IMG/VR virus record: IMGVR_UViG_3300009285_001968
Span: 1-20,733 of that record
DNA: 20,733 bases
Source: a virus
Reading direction: 5' to 3' (one strand)
The notes under the pieces are model-generated. The model searched no databases. It was given only the letters and a program-made list of their open reading frames with translations, and was not told the DNA's origin. Each line of letters starts with the position of its first letter. The stretch's first letter is position 1. A program made the translations under genes and the position numbers. Of this stretch, positions 1,365-20,540 are shown one piece after another.

Positions 1365-3423
1365 TTCCCCCTCCCTTATTTACTGCGGTCTCCAGCAGCA
1401 TTTTCAGATTTTCAAGCTGGTTCTTGTCCTCTGCCGATTTGGCAAACGCAAGGTTGCTCTCGATCCGAGACAGGATCTCCTGGATCGTGGCATCAGCAGA
1501 GGCGGCCAGCACTTCGGCCTCCAGTTCGCGCTTCTTCGCACTGGCAGAGACATCCGCAGTCTTGGCCTGGGTGAGCCCCTGCTCTACCTGCGAGGCCTGC
1601 GAAGCCGCATCGCGCATGCCCTGGATGACCTTCTCCGCCTCGTCTTTGGGCAGTACCCGGTCCACTGGCAGATCGCGGGCCTTGAGCCGGTCGATCAGCA
1701 GTCCATAGGTGTCGAGGATGGCCCGCTCCTCCGGGGTCAGGGTCATGACGAACTGATCAAGAGCAGCGCCGCGTACTTCCTTGGCCACCAGGGACAGATT
1801 GCCCTTGGCCCGAACCTGATAGTCACCCTTCAACTCCTCGTTCGGGTTGAACTCCATATTCCACTTGAGCATCGCCCCGACCTCACTGGTCGTGTATTTG
1901 TCGAAGGCCCGCACCGTATCCTTGGTAACCATGTTGGCTGAGCCCATCATCATGGACATATTGTTGGTGGTCCGGAACGCCTCGCCGAGCGGCTGCTGCA
2001 TGGCACCCATGGTGTAGGCCGGCAGGTTGCTCTCAATGTCGAGCTGCTGCCGTTGCATTGAAATTATTGGGATTATATCTTGCACATGGCAGTCTGTAGT
2101 CAGTTGCCGCAACGCCGGATAGTTGGCCTCGGCCCCGTCGCCCTCGCGCTCGATGGTCATAAACGCATGGATCGGCCCGACGTTCTTTCGCCCCCGGGGA
2201 AGCAGAGCTGTGTTCACCTCAGTAACAGGCCCCGCAGACGCGGCCATGTTATCCATCAAAGCCCTGGTCGAGGCGCACAGCGACATCTGTGAGTCCCTTA
2301 CCTCCTCTGGCAGCCCGACGCCAGTCAGTCCGGAATCTTCGTCCTCTGCGTAAATGAACGCATGGTACTGGTCAGATGGCCGCTCGCCGAACGCTGCCTT
2401 CTCCGCCTTGATCACCACGTCGTCGATGAACCACAGATCGGCCAAGATATCCTGGTCCAGCTCGTCGTCCTGCACATCGACCCCGGCCGCCTTCAGGGTG
2501 TGGGCGTCGATGAACCCGAGTGCGCGGTACAGCTCAAACCTCCGCGCCGTCCGGTCGGCAAGGTTGGCCGTCTTGGCCAGCTGATGCAGTTCCGCCTCGA
2601 AGGTCTTGGCCACATAGTTACCAGAAGCGTTCTCGCGCAAATACTCTCGAATTACATCTCCCTTGAAATCCTTCCGGTCGGCGAGCTTGCGGAAATCGTG
2701 CCGGGTCATGACCACTTTTTTGAAGCAAAGCTCCTGGTCTTCCCAGCTCTTGGCCGACAGATCTGGGTAGAAGTCCCAAACCCGGATGTATTCCGAGTAC
2801 GGCCGCTTGATCGTCTTCGTCTTTGCTACATAACCGCCGGTGGTTGGGTCTATCTCCCACACTCGCTCCGTCTGAGTTCGCACCAACGGGCACTCAGACA
2901 CACCGAAGCCATAGATGTACCCACTGCGCACAACTCGTTTGCACTTCTGCGGGTGGTCCTGCCCGGGGTCGGCCTGCTGATCGGCGATCTCCCGTTCCAT
3001 TTTCTCCGCCCGTTTAGCAGCAAAAGCCTGAACCTCGCGCTCGATGTCCTCACTGGTCACCGATACCGGCTGACCCTGCTCGTCGGTGCGGGCGTTCAGG
3101 GCGTCTATGATCTGCTGCAACGCAGCCTTTGGGATAGACGGGGACGGCGACGGAGTAAGTTCCCAGTTGCGCTCAGTGGCAGGGAACATCATCTCCATCA
3201 TCTTGGCCACGCCGCCCTTCACCTTGACTCGGGTATCTCTCGGATACACATGAGACCGCTCAGCAGGGATATTGGCCTTCACCTCCGGGTCGTACTGCCC
3301 AAGGTACTGGCGCAGGTTCTTCAGCCACTGCAGCTCGCATAAGTTGCGGTCAGCCACGAAGGTATCAAGCTGCTTCTTCAGGTGGGATCCGAGTTTCGCC
3401 AATTCGTCAGTTGTCGTAAGCAT
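1342..3423 (-). CDS. Phage portal protein (head-tail connector, podovirus type)
   Basis: 693 residues, starting three bases left of the TerL stop codon. The protein is soluble and mixed alpha/beta. The N-terminal region contains YPRDTRVKVKGGVAKMMEMM (about residues 60-79), typical of long portal proteins that start by anchoring to the membrane-free vertex, then RNWELTPSPSP. A Tyr/Trp-rich core (SEYIRVWDFYPDLSAKSWED) follows, then a long C-terminal helical region rich in Glu, Lys and Gln (about 600-690) that could be barrel or coiled coil. Size and position directly downstream of TerL match the 12-subunit ring through which DNA enters and leaves the head. I recognise it as the long (P22-like or environmental podovirus) portal type; the subfamily is not certain. 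The C-terminal end overlaps the next gene. Confidence 0.85.
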   Translation of the reverse strand: MLTTTDELAKLGSHLKKQLDTFVADRNLCELQWLKNLRQYLGQYDPEVKANIPAERSHVYPRDTRVKVKGGVAKMMEMMFPATERNWELTPSPSPSIPKAALQQIIDALNARTDEQGQPVSVTSEDIEREVQAFAAKRAEKMEREIADQQADPGQDHPQKCKRVVRSGYIYGFGVSECPLVRTQTERVWEIDPTTGGYVAKTKTIKRPYSEYIRVWDFYPDLSAKSWEDQELCFKKVVMTRHDFRKLADRKDFKGDVIREYLRENASGNYVAKTFEAELHQLAKTANLADRTARRFELYRALGFIDAHTLKAAGVDVQDDELDQDILADLWFIDDVVIKAEKAAFGERPSDQYHAFIYAEDEDSGLTGVGLPEEVRDSQMSLCASTRALMDNMAASAGPVTEVNTALLPRGRKNVGPIHAFMTIEREGDGAEANYPALRQLTTDCHVQDIIPIISMQRQQLDIESNLPAYTMGAMQQPLGEAFRTTNNMSMMMGSANMVTKDTVRAFDKYTTSEVGAMLKWNMEFNPNEELKGDYQVRAKGNLSLVAKEVRGAALDQFVMTLTPEERAILDTYGLLIDRLKARDLPVDRVLPKDEAEKVIQGMRDAASQASQVEQGLTQAKTADVSASAKKRELEAEVLAASADATIQEILSRIESNLAFAKSAEDKNQLENLKMLLETAVNKGGGNEQGTRS

Positions 3424-4896
3424 TTAATACCCCTCTTTCTGGGCTGGTCTGTAGGGCTGTTGCATGAATAGTGAGTTGAATCCGGATTCTATCGGGAGAT
3501 AGTCTGCCGGGTCGTACTTCTTACTGGACAAAAACATAGCACCGTACTGTCCGCCTTCAACAAGATGTGAGCACGGATGGGTCTTGTCCGGCTTGTCATC
3601 GTAGAGTTCGGCTACCGACAGCTTCAACCGGCGGTATTTGTAGTCTGACTGCATGGCGCGAATGAAGCTCTTACACGACGGATCGATCAAAATAAGCGGC
3701 CGGCAATCTGGGTACTCCCCGAACAGGTCGTCAAGAGCCTTTATCCGCGTCGTCGGGTCATTTGTAGATGCAGCCTTTGCGAGGATACCTGCATTCTTGA
3801 ACTCTTTGAAACAAGTGTTCTCGTCTGAATCTGCGCGGCGGACACCAGACGGGTCCCCGACCACGATGACTTCGTTTGTCGGAAACGTCGTTTTCCGCAT
3901 AGGGTTGAACTTGCTCTTGATATACCGCTTGGTCCCCATGTCAAACGCCGGAGTTTCCCGAAGAATGTGAATCCTCCCATCATGTTGCATCTGCATCCAC
4001 AGCCCTGCCGGAGTTAACCCGAAATCTTGCCCGACGATTACAGGCAGATACGGGTCAATATACAGCGGAGTTTTTGAAACGTGTCGGTCGTACCTGAACG
4101 TGTCCCAATAAACCGGCTTCCCAGCTTGTGACAGGGCGTACTTGGCACGAATGAAGACGTTTATGTAGGCGTTACTTCTGCCCTGGGCTTTCCTTTCATA
4201 GTACCCAGGAGCGAGGTTCACCTTGTTCTCAGCTTCAGGAGACAGCGCGTCTGGCTGTTTGAACGTGTCGCACAATACTACGGTCTTCGGGTCATCGTCT
4301 TCGAGAGGTACGTGCTCAAAAATTTTCCACCAGTACGACCCCAACTGAGGCGGGTTGGTGTCCGCAATCATCAACCAGTAATCGGACCCTCCCATTTTCT
4401 GCGACGGGTACCGCTCAAGCCGCCCCTGGACCCCTTCCACAATTTCCTGAACTATTTCGCGGCACTCGTTGAACCAGCACCCTGTGAGTTCGAGTGAAAG
4501 AACCTTAGAAACGTCCGCCGGAGTATCAAGCGCCCTGAACAGGATCTCTGCGCGAACATCTCCGTAGTGAATGAAGTACGTCATCGCGGTTTCTTTCCAG
4601 TATCCTACCCCCTGCCCTGGGGTGCCACTATCTGGAAACCAGTCGAACCACGTCTTCAACGTCGTGTCCTTCAGTTCTCCCTTGGTGTTCCTGACCACGA
4701 CCCAACGAGATCTACGGAACCCATCAGTGCTAACTCGCTGCTCTTTGCACCGCCGGAATATCTCTACGCAACACGCTACTGACTTTCCACCACCGATTGG
4801 GCCTAATATAGCGCGGAAGTCGGCGTTGGACCGATGAAACCTCGCCAGCGTAGGGGCCGATGTTCGCACATCGTATGTGAGAGTGAACTCACTCAT
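3424..4896 (-). CDS. terL: Terminase large subunit (ATPase and nuclease of DNA packaging)
   Basis: 490 residues. The Walker A P-loop GPIGGGKS is at residues 32-39. A Walker B-like hydrophobic strand ends in the catalytic acid (ELTGCWFNE, about 136-144). The coupling motif is DTNPP (about 179-183). The RNase H-fold nuclease follows, with acidic residues in VIVGQDFGLTPAG (Asp 291) and VVGDPSG (Asp 348). It pumps DNA into the prohead using ATP and cuts the concatemer. The start overlaps the stop of the TraR/DksA gene (TAATG), and the portal gene follows after one base. The probable small subunit lies about 8 kb away at 13118-13741, an unusual separation. Confidence 0.95.
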   Translation of the reverse strand: MSEFTLTYDVRTSAPTLARFHRSNADFRAILGPIGGGKSVACCVEIFRRCKEQRVSTDGFRRSRWVVVRNTKGELKDTTLKTWFDWFPDSGTPGQGVGYWKETAMTYFIHYGDVRAEILFRALDTPADVSKVLSLELTGCWFNECREIVQEIVEGVQGRLERYPSQKMGGSDYWLMIADTNPPQLGSYWWKIFEHVPLEDDDPKTVVLCDTFKQPDALSPEAENKVNLAPGYYERKAQGRSNAYINVFIRAKYALSQAGKPVYWDTFRYDRHVSKTPLYIDPYLPVIVGQDFGLTPAGLWMQMQHDGRIHILRETPAFDMGTKRYIKSKFNPMRKTTFPTNEVIVVGDPSGVRRADSDENTCFKEFKNAGILAKAASTNDPTTRIKALDDLFGEYPDCRPLILIDPSCKSFIRAMQSDYKYRRLKLSVAELYDDKPDKTHPCSHLVEGGQYGAMFLSSKKYDPADYLPIESGFNSLFMQQPYRPAQKEGY

Positions 4897-5093
4897 TACC
4901 TTCTCTCAACCTCTTCCTGGCACTCAACGCACCGCTGCACCCCTGGATACGCCTGGCGCCTCGCCTCGTGGATCCGCTCATCGCAGTCCATGCAGAAATG
5001 CGCAGATCTGCGCACCGGTATCCGCATCGCGGCCAAGACTACCGACATCTCTTTTTCGTATCGTTCTGATGCAATGTCAACGTCGTCGGCCAT
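4896..5093 (-). CDS. TraR/DksA-type C4 zinc-finger protein
   Basis: 65 residues. The C-terminal half has the four-cysteine finger C34-x2-C37 and C55-x2-C58 separated by EARRQAYPGVQR, the hallmark of the short TraR/DksA family. Family members insert their N-terminal helix into the secondary channel of RNA polymerase and alter promoter choice, in some cases without ppGpp. The N-terminal acidic helix (DDVDIASERYEKE) is consistent with this. A GGAG lies six bases before the ATG. It sits between the lysis hydrolase and TerL, so it would be made with the late genes and could retune host or phage transcription late in infection; that timing is inferred. Confidence 0.88.
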   Translation of the reverse strand: MADDVDIASERYEKEMSVVLAAMRIPVRRSAHFCMDCDERIHEARRQAYPGVQRCVECQEEVERR

Positions 5094-13117: not shown

Positions 13118-13741
13118 TCAGAAGTTGATGCTGATATTTATTTGCGAGTTATTCTGGTTTCCGTCGTTCTTGTCATCTTTTGGCTCCAATTTTGCCCATT
13201 TTACCGTGGACCGGATAGCTTCAAGCCGGGTAGACGCTGGAGTGCCGGCGTCGTAGACCAAAGCGTCCAGCACCTCCAAATATCCCTCAGCCTGCGTCCG
13301 AGCCTTGCCGGCGAAGGTGACCCCATTCTCCCGGGCGTCTCGGATGGTCAGGGCCAGCTCACGTCGGAAGGCTGGGACTTTAGAGAGTGTGTCGAACTCC
13401 TGCTCGGTCAGCCCATAGCGGGTGAGAATAGTGTCGAGTTCGTCCAGGCCCAGGGCGAGGTCCATGATGAAGCGCGGGTCCCATTTATTGGTGGGAGCTG
13501 GGCGGGGGAGACCGTCGAAGGCCGGATGTGTCAGCTCCTCAATTAAGTCCTGCGGACATGGTGCCGACCCACTACGTGCGCCACCAGATAAGGATGGGAG
13601 ACCGGCGAAGCCGGGCGGAGGGGGAGGCTCATACTCCGGCAACTCGGCCTCCCAAGGTTGTGCAAGCGTAGCGGGCTGCCCAAGCAGCTCCGCGTCCAGC
13701 ATATCGAAGTCGGTCCCCATTTCCCCTCGTATGGTATTCAT
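13118..13741 (-). CDS. Probable terminase small subunit
   Basis: 207 residues. The first 100 are acidic and Pro-rich (LPEYEPPPPPGFAGLP). The later part has a compact helical domain: ILTRYGLTEQEFDTLSKVP, then AFRRELALTIRDARENGV and AKARTQAEGYLEVLDALVYD, then an all-helical segment ending in QINISINF. Podovirus small terminases of marine and environmental phages share the order Arg-Tyr-Gly-Leu, Lys-Ala-Arg-x-Gln-Ala-Glu and a C-terminal (S)INI motif. The protein would recognise the packaging start and stimulate TerL. The start at 13741 has a weak ribosome site; an alternative ATG at 13720 lies too close to GAGGGG. Confidence 0.65.
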   Translation of the reverse strand: MNTIRGEMGTDFDMLDAELLGQPATLAQPWEAELPEYEPPPPPGFAGLPSLSGGARSGSAPCPQDLIEELTHPAFDGLPRPAPTNKWDPRFIMDLALGLDELDTILTRYGLTEQEFDTLSKVPAFRRELALTIRDARENGVTFAGKARTQAEGYLEVLDALVYDAGTPASTRLEAIRSTVKWAKLEPKDDKNDGNQNNSQINISINF

Positions 13742-13760: not shown

Positions 13761-13775
13761 ATAACATCCTGATAC
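13761..13775 (+). promoter_or_regulatory. Candidate operator, copy 2 (degenerate)
   Basis: Reads ATAACATCCTGATAC, matching ATA/GTA and TGATAC of the shared 15-bp palindrome with four differences from the best copy. It lies 20 bp upstream of the minus-strand start of the terminase small-subunit gene. The adjacent 13749-13768 sequence is also a dyad (ATGTTA, 8-bp loop, TAACAT). Confidence 0.35.
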
Positions 13776-13836: not shown

Positions 13837-13873
13837 AAGAAAAGGGTGCTAGAGACTTCAGTATAGCAAATTA

Positions 13874-14206
13874 CTACTTTTTGTCAAGCGGGTCTCGGTA
13901 TGGTGCCAGTCGCCCTAGGCAAGGGCCTTCGGGGGTGGGCGCGCCGCAGGTACTCCCAATAGATTTATAATAAACCGACTTCCTCCCACACTGTGAGCAT
14001 TGTGCAACAAAAGTGTCGATATTTACCACCACCTCGCCTCCGCTCGCCCACTCCCAGATCTGCTTAGCGGTGTCCAATACGTCTGAGGGCGTGAACGCTG
14101 GTGCATACTCCGCGCCGGACGGCTGCTTTCCTGCTGCATGGATATTAATTGCCATTCGCAGTGCTTCCATCTTGTAGGCCATCTCATTTTCTTTGCCTTC
14201 TGTCAT
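13874..14206 (-). CDS. Small phage protein with C-terminal zinc-ribbon-like cysteines
   Basis: 110 residues from the ATG at 14206, which overlaps the previous stop (ATGA). The N-terminal half is helical (KMEALRMAINIHAAGK, then PSDVLDTAKQIWEWASGGE), resembling short phage proteins whose helical domain precedes a zinc ribbon. The C-terminal half has CSQCGRK and CGAPTPEGPCLGRL, a C-x2-C plus C-x8-C arrangement able to hold zinc. The gene is the last before the terminator at 13799-13836. The function is unknown; the upstream ORF extension to 14332 is rejected because no ribosome site supports it. Confidence 0.65.
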   Translation of the reverse strand: MTEGKENEMAYKMEALRMAINIHAAGKQPSGAEYAPAFTPSDVLDTAKQIWEWASGGEVVVNIDTFVAQCSQCGRKSVYYKSIGSTCGAPTPEGPCLGRLAPYRDPLDKK

Positions 14207-15794: not shown

Positions 15795-16060
15795 GGGAGT
15801 ATCAGAAAATAGGGGAGTAGTTAAAAAATTCAGAAATTCAGTGAGCTAGGTGGAGTAGACACTGGAGTTACAAAAATTTGGGGCTCTGGGTAAATCCTGT
15901 GTCTGAAACCATGAGACAGAGGGCGGCACCTCCGCACCTTCCCCCCACATACCCCTCCCCGAAAACACGAAGTACCCCGGCCCCTCCGAAAATCAGCGGG
16001 AAGAATCGAGTAGCAGGACAAGGACGACCGGACCGACGAAACAATGAAAGGACGTGGATC

Positions 16061-16138
16061 ATGCGCCGAAGCACGGAAAAACTTAGATACCTAGACGCCC
16101 GACCGAAACAAGTGCGGACCTGGAACACTGGGAAGTGA
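16061..16138 (+). CDS. Doubtful 25-residue basic peptide
   Basis: ATG at 16061 with AAGGA about eight bases upstream encodes a basic peptide (MRRSTEKLRYLDARPKQVRT and five more residues) ending in the first unit of the 16-bp tandem repeat. It has no second line of support and may be chance. Confidence 0.2.
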   Translation: MRRSTEKLRYLDARPKQVRTWNTGK

Positions 16139-16191
16139 TCCGCCTGGGAAGTGATCCGCCTGGGAAGTGATCCGCCCGGGAAGTGATACTC
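16128..16191 (+). repeat. 16-bp tandem repeat, four units
   Basis: Units start at 16128, 16144, 16160 and 16176. Three are identical (CTGGGAAGTGATCCGC); the fourth differs in four or five positions (CCGGGAAGTGATACTC). The 16-bp period is about one and a half helical turns, so successive units lie on opposite faces. It ends about 40 bp upstream of the rightward promoter. A protein-binding array is the simplest reading. Confidence 0.85.
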
Positions 16192-16229: not shown

Positions 16230-16258
16230 TTGTCTCTTGCGTAACAAATTGATACAGT
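16230..16258 (+). promoter_or_regulatory. Rightward early promoter with extended -10
   Basis: TTGTCT (16230-16235) lies 17 bp from TACAGT (16253-16258), preceded by TGA to form TGATACAGT. The same -10 and flanks occur at the promoter at 1147-1176. It would drive the genes from 16314 on. The -35 is weak, so the extended -10 or an activator may be needed. Confidence 0.5.
16241..16255 (+). promoter_or_regulatory. Candidate operator, copy 3 (best palindrome)
   Basis: Reads GTAACAAATTGATAC. Arms GTA-CAA and TTG-TAC are complementary, leaving only positions 4/12 and the centre unmatched. It covers the spacer and first -10 bases of the rightward promoter. Confidence 0.55.
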
Positions 16259-16263
16259 AAATT

Positions 16264-16278
16264 ATAAAGAGTTGATAC
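16264..16278 (+). promoter_or_regulatory. Candidate operator, copy 4
   Basis: Reads ATAAAGAGTTGATAC: the right half TTGATAC is perfect, the left half degenerate. It starts 23 bp after copy 3, close to two helical turns, so two dimers could bind side by side over the promoter start. Confidence 0.4.
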
Positions 16279-17133: not shown

Positions 17134-17744
17134 GAACAGTCGAAATGAAGGTTTACAAGTTTGACGAACTGAGCGATTCAGCGAAAGACAAAGCACGGGA
17201 GTGGTTCAGGGGGACAATTGAACCCGACGATTATGCAGAATCCGTACTTGACGACGCAAACACCATTGCGCAGCTCTTCGGCCTGGAGATTGGCACGCGC
17301 ACTGTCAAGCTTATGGGAGGGGGATCAAGACAGGAACCGGAAATATATTTTGACCTTGGGCGCGGTTCAGGAGTTTATTTCTCCTGGAGCTACCAGTATA
17401 AACCGGGCGCCCTTGCCGCAGTGAAGGGGTATGCGGGACAGGATGAAGCCTTGCACAAGATAGTAGCAGACCTGCAGGCAATCCAGAAAAAGAACTTTTA
17501 CCAGCTCCAGGCAAGTGGAGAAATCCGGGACCGTAGTTATAATACTTGCGAAGTTGACCGCCTGGACGACAAAGAACCGACGGCCGACGCGCTGCAGGAA
17601 GTGGAAGACTGCATTTATCAGTTTAGTAACTGGATCCTTTCCAACCTGCAGAAAGAATACGACTATGTAAATTCGGACGAATCCGTCGATGAAAATATCC
17701 GGATCAATGAATATGAGTTCACGGCCGAAGGCGAAATAATGTAG
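17130..17744 (+). CDS. Phage protein of the type annotated antitoxin of a TA stability system
   Basis: 204 residues, starting in an ATGA overlap and preceded by AGGAGG. The opening VYKFDELSDSAKDKAREWFR is characteristic of a phage family (often labelled antitoxin of toxin-antitoxin stability system), followed by ESVLDDANTIAQLFGLEI, then SGVYFSWSYQYKPGALAAVK and the ending SVDENIRINEYEFTAEGE. No adjacent toxin is visible, and the label is not proven for this family. The stop codon TAG lies in the operator-like site at 17741-17755. Early expression and the acidic helical tail are all that can be added. Confidence 0.75.
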   Translation: MRTVEMKVYKFDELSDSAKDKAREWFRGTIEPDDYAESVLDDANTIAQLFGLEIGTRTVKLMGGGSRQEPEIYFDLGRGSGVYFSWSYQYKPGALAAVKGYAGQDEALHKIVADLQAIQKKNFYQLQASGEIRDRSYNTCEVDRLDDKEPTADALQEVEDCIYQFSNWILSNLQKEYDYVNSDESVDENIRINEYEFTAEGEIM

Positions 17745-17755
17745 CAAGTTGATAC
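17741..17755 (+). promoter_or_regulatory. Candidate operator, copy 5
   Basis: Reads GTAGCAAGTTGATAC, differing from copy 3 only at A-to-G in positions 4 and 8 of the 15-mer. It includes the stop codon of the preceding gene. No good -35 accompanies it. Confidence 0.5.
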
Positions 17756-17831
17756 ACTACATACTACAACGTAGTACAAGAAATATGATGAAAGTGACAG
17801 GAAATTAGTTTAACATTATTGTCAATTTTGT

Positions 17832-17846
17832 GTATCAAAATGCTAC
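17832..17846 (-). promoter_or_regulatory. Candidate operator, copy 6
   Basis: The minus strand reads GTAGCATTTTGATAC, keeping GTAGCA and TTGATACA. It faces copy 5 in convergent orientation 77 bp away. Confidence 0.45.
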
Positions 17847-17871
17847 CCGTAAGATGTTAAACAATAGGAAA

Positions 17872-17907
17872 ATGTAACAAAGAGCTACATGTAGAGCAAA
17901 GTTACAT
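17872..17907 (+). repeat. 36-bp spaced dyad
   Basis: ATGTAAC (17872-17878) and GTTACAT (17901-17907) flank the 10-bp perfect palindrome CTACATGTAG (17885-17894) with 6-bp spacers on each side, all centred at the same point. The half-sequences also match the GTA-n9-TAC operator layout (17874-17888 and 17891-17905). Confidence 0.7.
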
Positions 17908-17909
17908 CA

Positions 17910-17923
17910 TAAGCATATGCTTA
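17910..17923 (+). repeat. 14-bp perfect palindrome
   Basis: TAAGCATATGCTTA is its own reverse complement. It lies three bases past the 36-bp dyad. A protein-binding or unwinding role is inferred. Confidence 0.6.
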
Positions 17924-18064
17924 AATAGGTATGTTATGTAACAATAGGACACAAACAAAACGCACAAAAAGGGGTACAAAACGCACGTTTGCTGCAACGA
18001 AATGCTCAGGTGAGTAGGTCGTGGCGGGTTTGGTGCGGGGTTGACCAGGAGGATGAAAAGAGCC

Positions 18065-18098
18065 TTATATTATATACTTACTAATAAATATAATATAA
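18065..18098 (+). repeat. AT-rich inverted repeat
   Basis: TTATATTATAT (18065-18075) is complementary to ATATAATATAA (18088-18098) with a 12-bp loop. Both arms lie in an AT tract of about 50 bp that could unwind easily. No T-run of a terminator follows the stem in a convincing way. Confidence 0.6.
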
Positions 18099-18209
18099 AG
18101 AATGTAATTAATCCGGGTAAATTGATTATCATAGTCCCTATGGAGGGGGTCAAATTGGTGCGGATGCGGCCGGCCAAGAAAAAAAGTGAGTATGCTATTT
18201 TCGGCCGTG

Positions 18210-18365
18210 CAAAGTTACATTGTACCTTATTATCCTATCGGAATCATTACAAAAACCACCTTTTAAGGGCAAAACTTACAATGTCTCAACCTACTGGAAA
18301 CATTAAACTTTTTCAAAGTTACACGGCGTGCGAAATTACTAACAACTGGAATCATTACAAAAACC
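18210..18365 (+). repeat. Duplicated iteron-like motif pair
   Basis: CAAAGTTACA at 18210 and 18314 is followed 30-34 bp later by the identical 18-bp GGAATCATTACAAAAACC at 18240-18257 and 18348-18365 (108 bp apart). A third CAAAGTTACAT lies at 17897. The second pair is more diverged between the motifs, so this is an old duplication or a set of binding sites. Confidence 0.7.
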
Positions 18366-18402
18366 CCAAATCGCAAAACTACTCACTTGAGTAATTATAT
18401 TC

Positions 18403-18431
18403 TTGACATCATTTTGTAACTGCTATATCAT
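18403..18431 (+). promoter_or_regulatory. Strong sigma70-type promoter of the second rightward operon
   Basis: Perfect TTGACA (18403-18408) with 17 bp before TATCAT (18426-18431). The first gene starts 23 bp past the -10, with AAAGGAG between. It is the best promoter in the window. Confidence 0.75.
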
Positions 18432-18454
18432 TAAGACATAAAGGAGAGCAAACT

Positions 18455-18730
18455 ATGAAGCGAAATTGGTACACACCAAAGACAGACAGCCACCAAGGGC
18501 TCATCATTGATGAGCAGACCGGCAACAGTGTTGCCGTAGCCTTTGACAAAGCAGACGCGCCGCTCATCGCCGCCGCTCCTGACCTGCTGGAGGCGTTAGG
18601 GGCCTATCTTGCAGCACACGACAACGCTGCATGCACTGGCAGGCTCAGCGCACTCCTGGACGAGGGTTTTTCACTTGATTTGATGTTCGCCGCCAGGGAA
18701 GCAATAAGGAAAGCAACCGAGACCGAATGA
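18455..18730 (+). CDS. Small phage protein with AAPDLLEAL motif
   Basis: 91 residues, ATG after GGAG with eight-base spacing. The centre, DAPLIAAAPDLLEALGAYLA, is a short phage motif found in many small hypothetical proteins (A-x-L-I-A-A-A-P-x-L-L-E-A-L). The N-terminus resembles a beta hairpin with GLIIDEQTGNSVAVAFD. Its function is unknown. It is first in the operon driven from 18403-18431, and its stop overlaps the next start (ATGA). Confidence 0.7.
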   Translation: MKRNWYTPKTDSHQGLIIDEQTGNSVAVAFDKADAPLIAAAPDLLEALGAYLAAHDNAACTGRLSALLDEGFSLDLMFAAREAIRKATETE

Positions 18731-18951
18731 GGCCAGCGATGGACCCTAAGAAAATAACCATCCCACAAATGACCCCGGACCATTTGAAGCTGTTCCGCAA
18801 GGAATACGCCCTTAGCCAGTCCGACGCCGCGCAGATCACAGGTGTCTCCAGGGTCACGTGGAACCGCTACGAGAACGGGCACACAATCCCCCTGTACATG
18901 GTGCATGTGCTGAGGGGGGTAATCCGAACAATAAAGGAGCTAAAACCATGA
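18727..18951 (+). CDS. Small helix-turn-helix DNA-binding protein (XRE-like)
   Basis: 74 residues; the start at 18727 overlaps the previous stop (ATGA), and an in-frame ATG at 18739 with GAGG six bases upstream is the likelier start (70 residues). LKLFRKEYALSQSDAAQITG followed by VSRVTWNRYENGHTIPLYM is a classic helix-turn-helix: Ser-Gln-x-x-x-Ala-x-x-x-Gly-Val-Ser and Trp-x-x-Tyr-Glu-Asn-Gly. A short tail follows. It is the only clear DNA-binding repressor-like protein here, hence a candidate for binding the GTAnCAAnTTGnTAC sites; that link is pure inference. Confidence 0.85.
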   Translation: MRPAMDPKKITIPQMTPDHLKLFRKEYALSQSDAAQITGVSRVTWNRYENGHTIPLYMVHVLRGVIRTIKELKP

Positions 18952-19785: not shown

Positions 19786-20043
19786 ATGGCACATTTTATG
19801 GCAGTAATCCAAGGAAACAGGGGTGAAGCGTCCAGACTGGGCAGCGCTAACAGCGGCATGCAGGCCAGTGTCAACGGCTGGCATTCAGGGGTGCGGGTCT
19901 ATGCCTCGTACAATGAAGAAAAAGGCCGCGACGAGTTCCAGATCACTTTGTCCGGCGGCAGCAACGGCTACATTGTGCCGCGGCCACTCGGAGTGTTCGC
20001 CCTGGTCGATGGAGAGATGAAAAAACTTGAAGGAGGTGAGTGA
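19786..20043 (+). CDS. Small phage protein (NRGEA...RLG...SG family)
   Basis: 85 residues. The opening MAHFMAVIQGNRGEASRLGS then NSGMQASVNGWHSGVRVYAS matches a small family I associate with phages and plasmids (GxxxGNRGEAxRxG-x-SGM, then a WxxxVxVxxxYxE strand). The C-terminal half is beta-rich. Function unknown. Its stop overlaps the next start (TGATG). Confidence 0.7.
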   Translation: MAHFMAVIQGNRGEASRLGSANSGMQASVNGWHSGVRVYASYNEEKGRDEFQITLSGGSNGYIVPRPLGVFALVDGEMKKLEGGE

Positions 20044-20540
20044 TGAAAGCAAAAATCATCAGCCAGAACAGCAACGCCCTGCAGCCCAGCAACAAAGAAA
20101 CGGTCAACGTCCTGAACGTGGTAGGCACCCACAAAGGCGAGGTTATTAACCCAGTAACCGCCCGTTTCTACATGGGCCGGTCCTCCTCCGCCTCGGTGGT
20201 TTACTGCAACCTCTGGGTGCATGGCCCGCACAGTTCAAACCTGCACACCTCCGGCCGGGGGAGCGCCGGCGGGGGTGGCTACCATAAAGAGAGCGCCGGC
20301 GGGGGTGGCTACCATAAAGAGAGCGCAGCCTTGCAGGAGGCTATTACCTCCGCAGGGATCGAGTTGTATGGCTCTGCATACTGGCCCCCCCGCAAGGGGG
20401 AAGCAGCGAAAAACGAGCGGCCAGCAAAGAAAAACATCTGCCACATCGGCGGAGTGGGGTCCTCAGCCATGGAGACAGCCTTGCTTGCCATCGCTCGGGC
20501 GGCGGGGTTCAGGGGCAAACTTAAAGTGATTGGGGGGTGA
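20043..20540 (+). CDS. Widespread small phage protein with an internally duplicated Gly-rich motif
   Basis: 165 residues from the ATG at 20043, chosen because GGAGG lies upstream and the ATG overlaps the previous stop (TGATG). The family features are ARFYMGRSSSASVVYCNLWV then NLHTSGRGSAGGGGYHK, then AALQEAITSAGIELYGSAYW and HIGGVGSSAMETALLAIARA. I recognise it as a common, unnamed phage and plasmid family. Here the decapeptide SAGGGGYHKE is present twice through a 30-bp DNA duplication (20261-20320); the usual form has one copy. Function unknown. Confidence 0.75.
   Translation: MKAKIISQNSNALQPSNKETVNVLNVVGTHKGEVINPVTARFYMGRSSSASVVYCNLWVHGPHSSNLHTSGRGSAGGGGYHKESAGGGGYHKESAALQEAITSAGIELYGSAYWPPRKGEAAKNERPAKKNICHIGGVGSSAMETALLAIARAAGFRGKLKVIGG
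20261..20320 (+). repeat. 30-bp in-frame tandem duplication
   Basis: Two identical 30-bp units (20261-20290 and 20291-20320), starting GAGCGCCGGCGGGGGTGGCT. They give two consecutive SAGGGGYHKE-type blocks in the encoded protein. Slippage or recent duplication is the likely origin. Confidence 0.95.

Follow-up and report, generated by a model that had tools for sequence, protein, structure and literature searches.

Given that one palindromic pattern recurs in small gaps and control regions of an uncultivated phage, does it serve as an operator, and which protein would read it? We addressed these questions in a window of 20,733 nt, the whole stretch of DNA analyzed here (IMG/VR record IMGVR_UViG_3300009285_001968, positions 1-20,733), for which the original prediction had listed six copies of GTA-n-CAA-n-TTG-n-TAC. 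With a probability of roughly three in four, we consider the repeated element to be the operator of a phage-encoded dimeric repressor, most likely the small XRE protein encoded at 18742-18951 or a paralogue; that a repressor would bind the dyads and repress transcription there, we infer from sequence.

The repeated element is a 15-bp dyad with a variable centre

Exact copies of GTANCAANTTGNTAC occurred at only two places in the window, 16241-16255 and 17741-17755; the copy at 17832-17846 differed from it at one position, and those at 1150-1164, 13761-13775 and 16264-16278 at three each. When up to three mismatches were allowed, the window contained 13 matches versus 5.4 expected from dinucleotide shuffles (maximum 10), a count equalled by none of 100 shuffles. 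This excess, combined with the scarcity of exact copies, indicated that a signal was present but that the pattern as first written was not the right one. The rigid 15-mer with CAA and TTG fixed was too long and its centre was not conserved; it was replaced by the 15-bp dyad GTAWCA-N3-TGWTAC, sometimes N2, in which the fourth base of each half is loose. Tallying GTAWCA and TGWTAC at every spacing from 0 to 12 with at most one mismatch, we found four pairs in the window, all with spacing 3; with at most two mismatches, 11 pairs fell at spacing 3 versus 1-5 at the others. The related contigs G001 to G005 showed the same preference, although counts were low in G005, which is short; some good copies in the relatives have a spacing of 2.

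We built a symmetric weight matrix from 21 training sites, drawn from relatives only, and ran it over the window. The three central bases of the dyad carried almost no information. The best scores belonged to 16241 (18.6), 13761 (14.9), 17832 (14.6) and 1150 (14.4), followed by 3233 (14.1), 17874 (13.1), 17741 (12.6), 5058 (11.7) and 17938 (11.6). The operator reading would have suffered had equally good matches been scattered through genes at the same density. Good matches instead concentrated outside them: nine matches scored at least 10 (shuffles: mean 0.8, maximum 4), and seven of these lay within the 1,484 bases of non-coding DNA (shuffles: mean 0.27, maximum 3). Equally good matches inside genes do occur, at 3233 (portal gene) and 5058 in the window and at several places in G002-G004, some of them fixed by protein coding; the portal-gene match, which recurs within the same gene of relatives, is best read as coding. 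Matrices built by leaving out one lineage at a time recovered sites in G001, G002, G003, G004 and L097, along with in-gene matches; in L095 they recovered a single strong site. Accordingly, five of the six listed copies stand (1150, 13761, 16241, 17741 and 17832), the one at 16264 is doubtful (score 8.9), and the matrix suggests that 17874 and 17938 should join the list.

Predicted operators overlap the -10 boxes of early and late promoters

The top site, the predicted operator GTAACA-AAT-TGATAC (16241-16255, + strand), lies in the early promoter at 16230-16258 (+), where the -35 hexamer TTGTCT (16230-16235) is followed by 5 bp, the dyad and the -10 box TACAGT (16253-16258); the spacer is 17 bp, and the -10 box overlaps the right half of the operator. 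Promoter boxes here are consensus matches only, and the early -35 reads TTGTCT. The weak, uncertain site ATAAAGAGTTGATAC (16264-16278, +) is centred 23 bp downstream of the centre of the 16241 site. Upstream of the early promoter we also observed a short tandem array (16128-16190), as in G002 (L091 1-165) and G003 (L087 5360-5420); its unit differs, being the 16-bp CTGGGAAGTGATCCGC in the window, the 8-bp GCAGGAGC in G002 and the 8-bp GGGCAGAC in G003.

Gene 1-1104 is the first of a leftward operon whose promoter lies next to the portal gene. This promoter carries the predicted operator GTAAAC-TTT-TGATAC (1150-1164, - strand), with -35 TTGACT, an 18-bp spacer and -10 TACAGT. The 12-mer TTGATACAGTAA that the original prediction had found common to this site and the one at 16249 proved real: it comprises the right half-site together with the -10 box TACAGT. 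A possible second, weaker site, GTAAAGCATTGTTGC (1187-1201, -), lies within the end of gene 1173-1364, 37 bp upstream of the 1150 site from centre to centre, and is partly explained by coding. Upstream of gene 13118-13741, matrix and orthologues together point to the predicted operator GTATCA-GGA-TGTTAT (13761-13775, -), downstream of a terminator-like hairpin; the degenerate copy GTAGTA-ATT-TGCTAT (13863-13877, -) lies in the strong promoter TTGACA-N16-TATACT upstream of the same gene.

The remaining sites cluster around the non-coding control region between the first and second early operons (17745-18454). The predicted operator GTAGCA-AGT-TGATAC (17741-17755, +) overlaps the stop codon that closes the final gene of the first early operon; beyond it the matrix identified the predicted operator GTATCA-AAA-TGCTAC (17832-17846, -), the operator-like GTAACA-AAG-AGCTAC (17874-17888, +) and the weaker GTAACAATAGGACAC (17938-17952, +). 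The 17874 site and a mirror copy at 17891-17905 form a larger palindrome (17872-17907). Centre-to-centre distances of 91, 42 and 64 are irregular, and helical phasing of the cluster was therefore dropped. The second early operon, which carries the helix-turn-helix (HTH) gene, is preceded by the promoter TTGACA-N17-TATCAT (18403-18431, +), and no operator was found within that promoter. Other repeats in the non-coding region are three copies of CAAAGTTACAY (at approximately 17897-17907, 18210-18220 and 18313-18323) and two of GGAATCATTACAAAAACC (18240 and 18348). Further along, gene 20043-20540 contains an in-frame 30-bp tandem duplication (20261-20320) encoding the ten residues SAGGGGYHKE twice.

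Related viruses keep the dyad at orthologous positions

Related virus contigs were found via the terminase, and their control regions were read directly. The same 8-bp repeat array is present at both termini of G002 (63.0 kb), and G003 (63.4 kb) carries a terminal repeat of ~165 bp; both are probably complete genomes. G004 spans 50 kb, and a scan with the HTH alignment contributed two more loci, L097 from the 64-kb contig G006 and L095 from the 23-kb contig G007. Named relatives are remote, with terminases at most 39% identical; megablast of the window against named phages gave no match, nor did an Rfam search. Single-protein scans of viral contigs with the early genes 17130 and 18742 returned no relatives, whereas the alignment of HTH orthologues did find some. 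No recurring related palindrome was seen at the distant HTH loci L101-L103.

Conservation bore out the original prediction: relatives keep the dyad at orthologous positions even where the flanking DNA has diverged. In the ~63-kb related viruses copies stand at the promoters of the capsid and early operons, at that of the operon containing gene 13118-13741, and in the non-coding DNA that follows the first early operon. For the leftward operon (gene 1-1104), sites are present at the orthologous promoters of G001, G002, G003, G004, G005 and L016; in each, TTGAC[AT] is separated by 6 bp from the dyad, whose right half contributes TAC to a -10 box completed by ACT, AGT or TAT (spacer 18). Sites orthologous to 13761 were found at G001 2039, G002 62267, G004 38663, L097 2570 and L095 3150, with a weaker counterpart at G003 13959. 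Two further sites, G001 27115 (located in a leader) and G002 37803, were considered as orthologues and rejected. Early promoters with a layout like that of 16241 occur at G002 341, G004 39754 and L097 4274. Between two of these, GTAACA-GAG-TGTTAC in G004 is replaced by ATAACA-GAA-TGTTAT in L097; the two arms change alike, which would be anticipated if a symmetric dimer recognizes the dyad. At the early promoter of G003 the left half is unrecognizable (0/5 fixed bases), and matrix scans revealed no site at that of L095, so the early site is not universal.

In the window and its relatives alike, the first site of the non-coding cluster is found where the final gene of the first early operon ends; counterparts of 17741 lie at L091 3416, L090 6212 (G004 42211), L087 6986 (G003 15985) and L097 6303. 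The clusters span G002 3416-3858, G003 15985-16077, G004 42211-42630 and L097 6303-6640, within equivalents of 17745-18454 at L091 3425-4250, L090 6222-7020, L087 6985-7700 and L097 6312-7100. Near-perfect long hairpins with arms of 16-39 bp were also present in non-coding DNA (L091 3975-4075, L090 6748-6848 and 6408-6548, L095 5392-5496, L097 6848-6920). Their sequence varies by lineage, with a paired change between G002 and G004 from GTGGGAAATG/CATTTCCCAC to GTGGTAAATG/CATTTACCAC; a priming site, a structured RNA or a cruciform is possible. Elsewhere in G003, a large helicase-like reading frame (26980-29496) contains the Cys-containing stretch CVDGSTEFLTPTG, which looks like the start of an intein.

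The left half-site is retained when promoters are selected without it

At most promoters 5-6 bp separate the -35 hexamer (TTGACA) from the start of the dyad, whose right half supplies the first bases of the -10 box. The bare TTGATAC was accordingly ruled out as a -35 box. A dyad placed between -35 and -10 is an arrangement typical of repressors that keep RNA polymerase off the promoter, which supports the earlier reading of the sites as operators of early and late promoters. The same geometry suggests another explanation, namely that the motif is a mere promoter signature, an extended -10 element (TGnTACAnT) used by the host or a phage-modified polymerase, with an accidental left half; at most promoters the right half plus ACT or AGT does read TGnTACACT or its equivalent. 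We therefore chose promoters by their -35 and right half alone and inspected the left half afterwards. At least three of its five fixed bases were present in 12 of 21 promoters (chance 0.10 each; p ~2e-7 if independent) and, after orthologues were collapsed, in 8 of 15 (p ~4e-5). Enrichment at a fixed distance in a half that was not selected on implies that the left half is itself under selection and that the element is more than an extended -10 box. Together with non-coding sites that lack any -35 and occur in both orientations, this favours protein binding to the dyad; moreover, a single half-site spacing is preferred in six genomes. We regard the promoter-signature explanation as quite improbable.

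A small XRE protein is the leading candidate binder

The sole HTH protein found in the window, whose contig is incomplete, is a small XRE-type protein of 69 aa counted from 18742 (18742-18951, +; first in-frame ATG at 18727). It passed the Pfam family cut-offs for HTH_31 (30.0 bits, cut-off 27) and HTH_3 (28.9 bits, cut-off 23), and an AlphaFold model (pLDDT 88) has the HTH fold of the XRE family; the model's nearest folds are Aca10 (Z 9.2), HigA2 (8.8) and Aca2 (8.3), and also include MqsA (7.2). By sequence, its PDB relatives include Aca3, PezA, Aca10, Aca2 and MqsA. Each of the five relatives whose sequence includes the early region (G002, G003, G004, G006 and G007) has an orthologue, and these share the recognition-helix core RV[ST]WxR[WY]E with invariant R37, V38, W40, R42 and E44. 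Judged by conservation and position, the odds that this particular protein binds the operator are about even.

A different regulator is a lesser but serious prospect, either another XRE paralogue or a host XRE protein. Relatives have some three XRE proteins each: besides the orthologue, G002-G004 and G006 encode two more with partly similar recognition helices, and the window contig is incomplete. Against this, of the three XRE proteins the orthologue of 18742-18951 shows the highest conservation, and no other was seen in the window. In G007 a second, degenerate HTH-like domain precedes the orthologue in a fusion (L095 5758-6153), and in G002 a longer XRE protein lies upstream of it (L091 ~4440-4970); expansion of the XRE family seems to be under way in this early region.

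Two further readings concern the role of the sites rather than the identity of their binder. The cluster at 17745-18454 could be a replication origin or centromere, the motif being a Rep or Par site that also autoregulates promoters: the region is long, AT-rich and non-coding, holds several copies just before the second early operon, and has long hairpins in relatives. Yet the relatives have no ParA-type or resolvase genes, no strict DnaA box lies within 17745-18454, inter-site distances are irregular, and the same sites occur at capsid-operon promoters, which is not expected of iterons; we deem this reading improbable. The position of the dyad between -35 and -10 would also suit a MerR-like activator. 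MerR target promoters have spacers of 19-20 bp, but those observed here (17-18 bp) are already optimal for sigma-70 and the candidate belongs by Pfam to XRE, not MerR, so that activation of this kind is very improbable.

Proposed mode of regulation

Returning to the preferred reading, a phage-encoded dimeric repressor, a dimer of the small XRE protein would place one recognition helix in each half-site, cover the spacer and -10 box and thereby exclude host sigma-70 RNA polymerase. Blocking transcription from the first early promoter (16230-16258) as well as from the late promoters at 1150 and 13761 would coordinately repress the early and the two leftward operons. A search for a T7-type RNA polymerase gave no match, but neither did its control query anywhere, so that this negative carries no weight. 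The HTH gene stands behind the operator-free promoter at 18403, so repressor synthesis could continue; its counterparts in G002 and G004, and by reading in L097, likewise have a promoter without an operator, so that in most members of the group the repressor would not regulate itself. In G003 a site (16672) lies just downstream of the promoter preceding the HTH gene. The cluster at 17741-17952 probably serves one or more of cooperative binding, looping, an operon-end road-block and repressor titration, and late genes could be derepressed through titration by replicating genomes or through an anti-repressor, both being possible.

Pfam searches of the relatives, two of which look complete, found no tyrosine integrase, resolvase or ParA (PF00589, PF00239, PF13614); a lysogenic module of some other type may be present. 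Tentatively, we envisage ~63-kb tailed phages without an integrase in which one palindrome, fused into early and late sigma-70 promoters and repeated in a non-coding region, forms a genome-wide switch operated by an Aca-like mini-repressor, either as a lytic timing device or as a lysogeny or carrier-state switch without integration.

Comparison with known repressor systems

The predicted operator family is conserved across this uncultivated phage group, and dispersed phage repressor operators are a kind already known, of which it is a further case: the same site is repeated at several promoters and in gaps between genes throughout the genome. The C1 repressor of phage P1 similarly acts through 22 operator sites across early and late control regions, and its sites are 17 bp long and asymmetric (PMC8546580). 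Unlike these, the present sites are 15-bp dyads fused into promoters; and P1 is temperate, whereas the relatives here have no detected integrase, resolvase or ParA. Operators and stoperators of the mycobacteriophage L5 type also lie at promoters and small intergenic gaps genome-wide, as 13-bp asymmetric sites that a monomer binds and whose orientation follows that of transcription (PMC9283540). The present sites share that distribution but are palindromic, and many lie in the core promoter. They lack the asymmetry of P1 C1 and L5 sites, being dyads whose left half is kept even when unselected.

The antitoxin MqsA recognizes AACCT-N3-AGGTT and an N2 variant (PMC4894380). Its C-terminal HTH resembles the system described here in its short half-sites, 2-3 bp centre and regulation of several promoters; the half-site sequence differs, however, and here only the HTH part is present. 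The 18742-18951 protein scores below the Pfam MqsA_antitoxin cut-off (26.2 versus 30 bits), and no toxin partner was seen for it.

Aca repressors provide the closest fold, that of Aca10, and a similar architecture. Members of that family bind inverted repeats in core promoters (PMC9410906, PMC9410881); the repeat always lies within the core promoter, a strong sigma-70 one (PMC9410906), and here too an inverted repeat lies in the core promoter of the operons presumed to be regulated, with a small phage XRE/HTH protein (as in Aca1, Aca2, Aca3 and Aca10) as candidate binder. Aca proteins are known for repressing their own acr operon. Here, in contrast, the sites stand at early and late operons other than that of the HTH gene, which lies behind an operator-free promoter; no acr gene was identified, and the neighbouring early genes had no Pfam match or PHROG of known function. 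What appears to distinguish this family is a dyad that merges with the -10 box in promoters of both early and late operons, with an Aca/MqsA-like mini-repressor as the likely binder. A sequence pattern of an uncultivated phage is thereby turned into a testable regulon that specifies which operons, which protein and which bases. Collectively, our findings suggest that a phage group without a recognizable integrase keeps a genome-wide early and late off-switch, and that Aca-like mini-repressors may govern a whole phage programme rather than just one anti-CRISPR operon.
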